Under the pieces are notes generated by a model. It saw only the letters and a program-made list of their open reading frames with translations, ran no database searches and was not told where the DNA came from. The position numbers and the translations under genes were made by a program. A DNA stretch of 64,000 nucleotides from Brachyspira hampsonii 30446. Its GTDB lineage: Bacteria > Spirochaetota > Brachyspiria > Brachyspirales > Brachyspiraceae. The stretch is from contig NZ_JH994111.1 of assembly GCF_000316195.1 (NCBI RefSeq), forward strand, positions 566,571-630,570, given 5' to 3'. This document shows, one piece after another, positions 46,348-46,460 of the stretch; position 1 is the first letter of the stretch; each line of letters begins with the position of its first letter.

Positions 46348-46409
46348 CTTATAGTCAATTATTGAGGTAATTGGTAGAAACGTTCAGCCATATTATGAAC
46401 TTATATAAG
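46348..46409 (-). ncRNA. Guanine-class purine riboswitch aptamer
   Basis: A 62-nt aptamer on the minus strand. P1: CTTATA (46409-46404) with TATAAG (46353-46348). J1/2 begins TATAAG. P2: GTTCA / TGAAC around the loop AATATGG. J2/3: GTTTCTACC. P3: CAATTA / TAATTG around CCTCAA. J3/1: GACTAT. The purine-specifying base is C (GACTAT, not GATTAT), so guanine-type rather than adenine. L3 is one base shorter than the usual CCGUAAA. Between aptamer and start codon are about 37 bases with GGAGG. CCTTAT there can pair with ATAAG of P1 or with GAGG, suggesting control of translation. Confidence 0.88.
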
Positions 46410-46432
46410 CTGTATAGTTATTGCCTGATAGC

Positions 46433-46460
46433 ATTATAAAATATTTTATTTTTATGTCAA
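46433..46460 (-). promoter_or_regulatory. Consensus promoter for the riboswitch-deaminase transcript
   Basis: Minus-strand TTGACA (46460-46455), 16 bases, TATAAT (46438-46433). Both hexamers match the vegetative consensus exactly. Transcription would start near 46426, about 17 bases before the aptamer. Confidence 0.85.

Follow-up and report, generated by a model that had tools for sequence, protein, structure and literature searches.

Guanine-I riboswitches have been described chiefly as OFF switches of purine synthesis, salvage and uptake genes, and riboswitches of the 8-oxoguanine class are said, in a 2023 PNAS paper, to be ON switches that always adjoin 8-oxoguanine deaminase genes. The 8-oxoguanine class is derived from guanine-I (PMC9295807), and its members are guanine-I variants mutated at key ligand-recognition bases (PMC11625349). 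Among adenine riboswitches, the terminator of pbuE from Bacillus subtilis, a transcriptional ON switch, must invade loop L3 for the OFF state (PMC7707468), and the ligand-free fold of add from Vibrio vulnificus, a translational ON switch, conceals the ribosome-binding site (PMC10907184). Here we analyzed a purine riboswitch that precedes an 8-oxoguanine deaminase family gene in the gut spirochaete Brachyspira hampsonii 30446 (source genome 3.04 Mb; near relatives, Brachyspira); the stretch studied, hereafter the window, comprises 64,000 nucleotides (nt) of contig NZ_JH994111.1, and its coordinates are used throughout. We consider it probable that this element is a guanine-I-type aptamer acting as a translational ON switch for the deaminase, as suggested by fold prediction across relatives.

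The aptamer was found with Rfam cmscan as a match to RF00167 at 46428..46332 on the minus strand, where it scores 58.1 bits (gathering score 37; E 2.1e-7 over the 64 kb of the window), and is the only match above the cut-off in the whole genome; R1, a model for this aptamer that includes the window copy, gives it 93.9 bits. This covariance-model search had been proposed as a check in an earlier first-pass annotation of the locus, whose call of a guanine-class riboswitch with C at the ligand-pairing position it bears out. The order on the minus strand was likewise read correctly there: a perfect sigma-70 promoter (TTGACA-16-TATAAT) is followed by the 62-nt aptamer, the Shine-Dalgarno (SD) sequence GGAGG and a 457-codon deaminase-family gene. 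Such a perfect promoter pair is expected by chance 0.26 times per window, and the promoter was seen in every Brachyspira leader inspected. In the numbering of the xpt structure, the window reads U20 A21 U22 A23 A24, G46 U47 U48 U49 C50 U51 A52 and G72 A73 C74 U75 A76. J1/2 UAUAA, J2/3 GUUUCUAC and J3/1 GACUA with C74 are all identical to guanine-I, and the kissing bases are present by sequence, L2 ending in GG and L3 beginning with CC. The element is thus a purine riboswitch with a guanine-I-type pocket. With the guanine-I riboswitch of B. subtilis xpt-pbuX (RF00167) it shares the three-way junction, the pocket bases U22, U47, U51, A52, A73 and C74, and L2 GG/L3 CC; it differs in a P2 of 5 bp plus a U-C mismatch, a P3 of 6 bp and an L3 of 6 nt (7 in the Rfam consensus), in its predicted ON rather than OFF direction, and in the degradative gene that it precedes.

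That gene had been described as an 8-oxoguanine deaminase homologue, and rightly so: its product reaches 584 bits against the NCBIfam 8-oxoguanine deaminase model NF006055 (curated cut-off 532), and the closest solved structures are PDB 3hpa (E 5.7e-131) and 7ww2. The HxH, HTHL and VDGSASND motifs that mark NF006055 enzymes are present, and the metal-ligand motifs and VDGSASND are shared with those structures, whereas the clade to which the window enzyme belongs has CPISN for CPCSN and AHG for AHC. Members of this enzyme family act on guanine, yielding xanthine, on 8-oxoguanine, yielding urate, and also on isocytosine (PMC6186785). Because family members also deaminate guanine, and because the guanine deaminase TIGR02967 was not found in any of the 18 Brachyspira genomes searched, guanine would be a sensible inducer.

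An 8-oxoguanine deaminase gene downstream, which the NF006055 match provides here, is reportedly a defining trait of the 8-oxoguanine class. Known variants of the guanine-I scaffold do sense 8-oxoguanine (PMC9295807), as the first-pass annotation had noted in putting this base forward as a possible natural ligand; oxidative damage would then release 8-oxoguanine, the aptamer would bind it and the deaminase would be turned on, as in the Paenibacillaceae class (doi 10.1073/pnas.2307854120), with which the window shares a purine scaffold adjoining a gene of the same enzyme family and, by prediction, the ON direction. The recognition bases of that class, however, are mutated (PMC11625349), whereas no pocket base in the window differs from guanine-I, the class being compared by its description only; moreover, Lachnospiraceae, the probable source lineage (below), carry the same aptamer type and pocket upstream of genes for guanine deaminases and for an NCS2-type permease. 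Since the published class has mutated recognition bases and the window pocket is entirely guanine-I, guanine appears the likelier ligand, and by its pocket bases the element is a guanine-I riboswitch rather than a member of the 8-oxoguanine class. We accordingly set aside the earlier proposal, and judge 8-oxoguanine as natural ligand to be rather unlikely; about as unlikely is a sensor of 8-oxoguanine, or of guanine and 8-oxoguanine both, that keeps an unmutated guanine-I pocket and uses L3 as kissing loop and anti-SD in host-associated spirochaetes.

For the output of the guanine-type switch, the window leader was predicted to form a long ligand-free hairpin at -20.5 kcal/mol, as against -14.7 kcal/mol with the aptamer enforced, in which L3 together with strands of P3 and P1 would cover the SD site (Table 1). 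Pairing of L3 with the SD site was predicted at ~0.95-1.0 per base in the free ensemble of 14/16 distinct Brachyspira leaders, and 14/16 also have, by prediction, the arrangement of pbuE and add, i.e., an aptamer-excluding ligand-free hairpin built from aptamer strands. The pairing is kept where its parts have changed, as in locus L013 (L3 CCUAAA, SD GGGGUGA) and locus L018 (linker AUCAAUU), and swaps of L3 cost the window hairpin 1.8-5.4 kcal/mol. An intrinsic terminator was looked for in the window leader and none was found; AUAAG/CUUAU with the following U's was considered for this role and rejected, as it has one G-C pair only. The suggestion of a translational switch in the first-pass annotation is supported by fold prediction, and its idea that CCTTAT pairs with P1 or with GGAGG survives in part: CCTTAT is predicted to pair with the P1 3' strand in the ligand-free fold, but the main partner of GGAGG would be UACCUC of L3. 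As the sole SD-hiding element CCTTAT was rejected, being weak and confined to a local hairpin; in the bound-type fold, where that hairpin is seen, CCTTAT is predicted to pair with the 5' leader via UGCCU. The resulting P0 helix beneath P1, which some relatives show in their bound-type folds, may hold the second CCU away from the SD site; both of its strands are missing together in L017 and L022.

From these predictions, the switch may work as follows. RNA polymerase would make the aptamer first. In the absence of ligand, UACCUC of L3, UAAUUGA of P3 and AUAAG of P1 would pair with GAGGUA, UUAAUUA and CUUAU, respectively, hiding the ribosome-binding site, whereas guanine or a close base, e.g., hypoxanthine, would fill the pocket and lock the L2-L3 kissing loops, so that L3, P3 and P1 are retained in the aptamer. 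The ligand-bound aptamer would thereby block the SD-hiding hairpin, the deaminase would be translated, and the enzyme would remove the amino group, yielding xanthine from guanine or urate from 8-oxoguanine. Like pbuE, this arrangement would have an alternative hairpin that invades the aptamer into L3, though with C74 in place of U74 and a predicted translational output in place of a terminator; like add, its ligand-free fold is predicted to hide the ribosome-binding site, though again with C74 and with L3 itself predicted to pair with the SD site.

L3 was also compared with that of related switches in Lachnospiraceae, where R1 found matches in 56/299 genomes. In most of the matches read, P3 is 6 bp and L3 6 nt long, and the downstream genes include, by inspection, those for guanine deaminases, for NAD/FAD oxidoreductases and for NCS2-type permeases; with the guanine deaminase model one representative downstream protein reaches 373.8 bits, slightly below the cut-off of 375.4. 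Most of these switches with a nearby U-run have a terminator arm whose partner lies within the aptamer, mainly in P3/L3, as in Blautia (L030), where CCUUAACAG/CUGUUAGGG pairing precedes UUUUUU; they would be ON switches that follow the pbuE scheme with a guanine-type pocket. When L3 sequences were reassigned among 20 switches, the alternative hairpins became weaker than those formed by each L3 with its own downstream arm (p 1e-4), and the same reassignment in the 16 Lachnospiraceae switches alone gives p 0.0026. The 6-nt L3 switches of this family (L030, L039, L053-L082), with guanine deaminase, FAD oxidoreductase or NCS2-type permease genes, share with the window the proportions of P2, P3 and L3, the pocket, and an L3/P3 common to aptamer and platform; they differ in having intrinsic terminators and A, C or U at position 73. 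The first-pass annotation had singled out L3 (CCTCAA) as one base short, which is correct as a length, but not as a deviation, since six bases are usual in these relatives. A short L3 as the sign of an altered ligand was likewise rejected, six nt being the rule in the related switches and the sequence following the platform; in the window, the two roles of L3, as kissing loop and as predicted platform strand, account for its unusual form.

Several observations weigh against this account of the output. The modeled gain in SD exposure is small for the window, where the mean unpaired value rises from 0.20 to 0.33 in the bound state, in a model without kissing loops or ligand energy; in the same model it rises from 0.15 to 0.64 in L013 and from 0.20 to 0.49 in L019. 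L017 and L022, a separate and partly degenerate leader type, have no SD-hiding hairpin, and one species (G007, L143/L028) has the gene and the promoter with no aptamer in the leader. Shuffles of single leaders gave modest values (p 0.05-0.17 for leaders having the hairpin; 77/3000 and 167/3000 for the window hairpin under two other shuffles), which reflects the AT-rich sequence of the region and the bias toward CCUC that the SD site itself imposes; the comparative test on relatives was used for this reason, and that permutation test ignores the relatedness of the switches. Given the small gain in the window, we infer an ON direction as likely but put it no more firmly.

The opposite direction, a guanine/hypoxanthine sensor that lowers expression, would be the ordinary behavior of the class, as most guanine-I riboswitches cut expression when guanine is plentiful (PMC9295807), and a weak local hairpin still masks part of the SD site in the modeled bound state of the window. 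Against an OFF switch, no strong SD-hiding hairpin is predicted that forms only with the aptamer, the strong one using aptamer strands; a degradative gene would be shut off by its own substrate, and the related Lachnospiraceae switches have aptamer-excluding terminators. We therefore hold an OFF switch to be distinctly unlikely and retain the translational ON switch.

RF00167 is present in 19/61 relatives. Among the 18 Brachyspira genomes searched for both gene and aptamer, the gene occurs in 12, and the aptamer in 11/12 genomes with the gene and 0/6 without it; the G007 leader is a natural switch-less control. G014 has two tandem deaminase copies, each with its own aptamer: that of the upstream copy (L022, G014:C1:1103289-1103386) has a damaged core (GCUCUACC) and no SD-hiding hairpin, and that of the downstream copy (L018) is intact. 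Such losses might be taken to mean that the aptamer is a relic, the gene having arrived with a Firmicute leader whose switching was then lost in Brachyspira; the damaged J2/3 of L022 (GCUCUACC), the loss of the hairpin in L017 and L022 and that of the aptamer in G007 would fit. But every other species retains the pocket despite divergence of the preceding leader, and L3, P3 and the new SD site remain complementary in separate lineages, which leaves a relic very improbable. In a sister genus within Brachyspiraceae (L005, L006), ordinary purine aptamers with a 7-nt L3 precede purE/purK; in L006, G replaces C immediately after UUUCUA. Two deaminase genes seem to be interrupted by insertions: in L026 (Brachyspira pilosicoli PC5538III-hc) transposase/integrase-like DNA stands directly before deaminase codon 5, and unrelated sequence adjoins the leader and the first eight deaminase codons in L016.

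As to origin, the enzyme of Brachyspira shares 70% identity with its Blautia caecimuris counterpart, compared with 49% for the enzymes of other spirochaetes. The tree groups Brachyspira (100/99) with Blautia L030 and L050 of G199 (92/97), and this group is nested in a set otherwise made up of Lachnospiraceae and one Clostridium (99/95). The phylum sample contained 47 genomes with the gene, and the aptamer scan covered 30 of its loci plus 13 Lachnospiraceae loci; the aptamer was absent from all scanned Clostridia and Lachnospiraceae 8-oxoguanine deaminase loci (30 + 13) except that of Blautia. Outside Brachyspira, this aptamer was found with just two 8-oxoguanine deaminase genes, Blautia L030 and L050 of G199; in G199, the L050 gene is cut at a contig end, and L058 consists of an aptamer at a contig end followed by the first codons of an L050-type gene. 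Because the tree sets Brachyspira beside these two aptamer-bearing Lachnospiraceae genes, a joint transfer with a change of output is suggested: Brachyspira probably obtained the gene along with its switch from a Lachnospiraceae donor, a gut Firmicute, the direction being inferred from the nesting. Most simply, a Lachnospiraceae gene would first have gained a guanine-type ON switch, gene and switch would then have entered Brachyspira, and there pairing of L3/P3 with the SD region would have replaced the terminator, turning a transcriptional output into a translational one.

The features of the window locus are collected in Table 1.

Table 1. Promoter, aptamer, predicted expression platform and gene at the window locus
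Feature	Coordinates	Strand	Basis
-35 box TTGACA	46455..46460	-	12/12 consensus jointly with -10, 16-nt spacer
-10 box TATAAT	46433..46438	-	exact consensus
AGGCA, leader strand of predicted P0 helix beneath P1	46422..46426	-	pairs with UGCCU in bound-type folds of L013, L018, L019
Purine aptamer proper, 62 nt	46348..46409	-	RF00167 58.1 bits; R1 model
P1	46409-46404/46353-46348	-	RF00167, R1
P2	46400-46396/46386-46382	-	RF00167, R1
J2/3 GUUUCUAC, same as guanine-I (U47, U48, U49, C50, U51, A52)	46374..46381	-	sequence, RF00167 alignment
P3	46373-46368/46361-46356	-	RF00167, R1
L3 CCUCAA, 6 nt; L2 kissing partner and predicted anti-SD	46362..46367	-	alignment, fold prediction
UACCUC, outer 5' arm of predicted SD-hiding hairpin (L3 and end of P3)	46364..46369	-	predicted pairing with GAGGUA, P ~0.99 per base, free ensemble
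UAAUUGA, middle 5' arm (P3 3' strand)	46355..46361	-	pairs with 46333..46327, predicted
Ligand-pairing C (position 74, xpt guanine riboswitch numbering)	46354	-	GACUAU in J3/1, RF00167 alignment
AUAAG, inner 5' arm (P1 3' strand)	46348..46352	-	pairs with CUUAU 46339..46335, predicted
UGCCU, P0 3' strand, overlapping CUUAU	46338..46342	-	fold prediction
CUUAU, inner 3' arm of predicted SD-hiding hairpin	46335..46339	-	fold prediction
UUAAUUA, middle 3' arm	46327..46333	-	fold prediction
SD GGAGG	46320..46324	-	sequence; 9 nt ahead of start codon
GAGGUA, outer 3' arm, holds most of SD site	46318..46323	-	fold prediction
Gene for an amidohydrolase of the 8-oxoguanine deaminase family, 457 aa	44937..46310	-	NF006055 584 bits; PDB 3hpa; metal-ligand motifs conserved

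A gene resembling 5'-nucleotidase/UshA (PF00149 + PF02872; 42931-44463, minus strand) lies 473 bp downstream of the deaminase on the same strand, and a similar gene also follows the deaminase in L023-L025. The other perfect promoter in the window, TTGACA-17-TATAAT at 55746-55774 (plus strand), stands close to a tRNA gene encoded on the minus strand (55545-55630). Among the Lachnospiraceae switches, position 73 beside the pocket is A, C or U, with C74 kept, in L039, L060, L067, L070 and L114-L126, before guanine deaminases and related genes. An NAD/FAD-dependent oxidoreductase is a recurrent partner of the guanine-type switches in this family (L054, L059, L061, L063, L126, L128) and may belong to purine breakdown.

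Altogether, the element is a real and conserved guanine-type riboswitch, and it is likely a variant in its wiring, with a predicted ON direction, an L3 shared with the ribosome-binding site, a degradative gene downstream and a probable transfer between phyla. As a matter of caution, a purine aptamer adjoining an 8-oxoguanine deaminase gene does not by itself imply an 8-oxoguanine riboswitch. Together with its Lachnospiraceae relatives, the Brachyspira switch suggests that guanine-type ON switches of genes for base degradation, with L3 tuned to the platform, form a sizeable set, and it looks like a natural move of a riboswitch between phyla along with its gene, in which the aptamer was retained unchanged and a terminator gave way to control at the ribosome-binding site.
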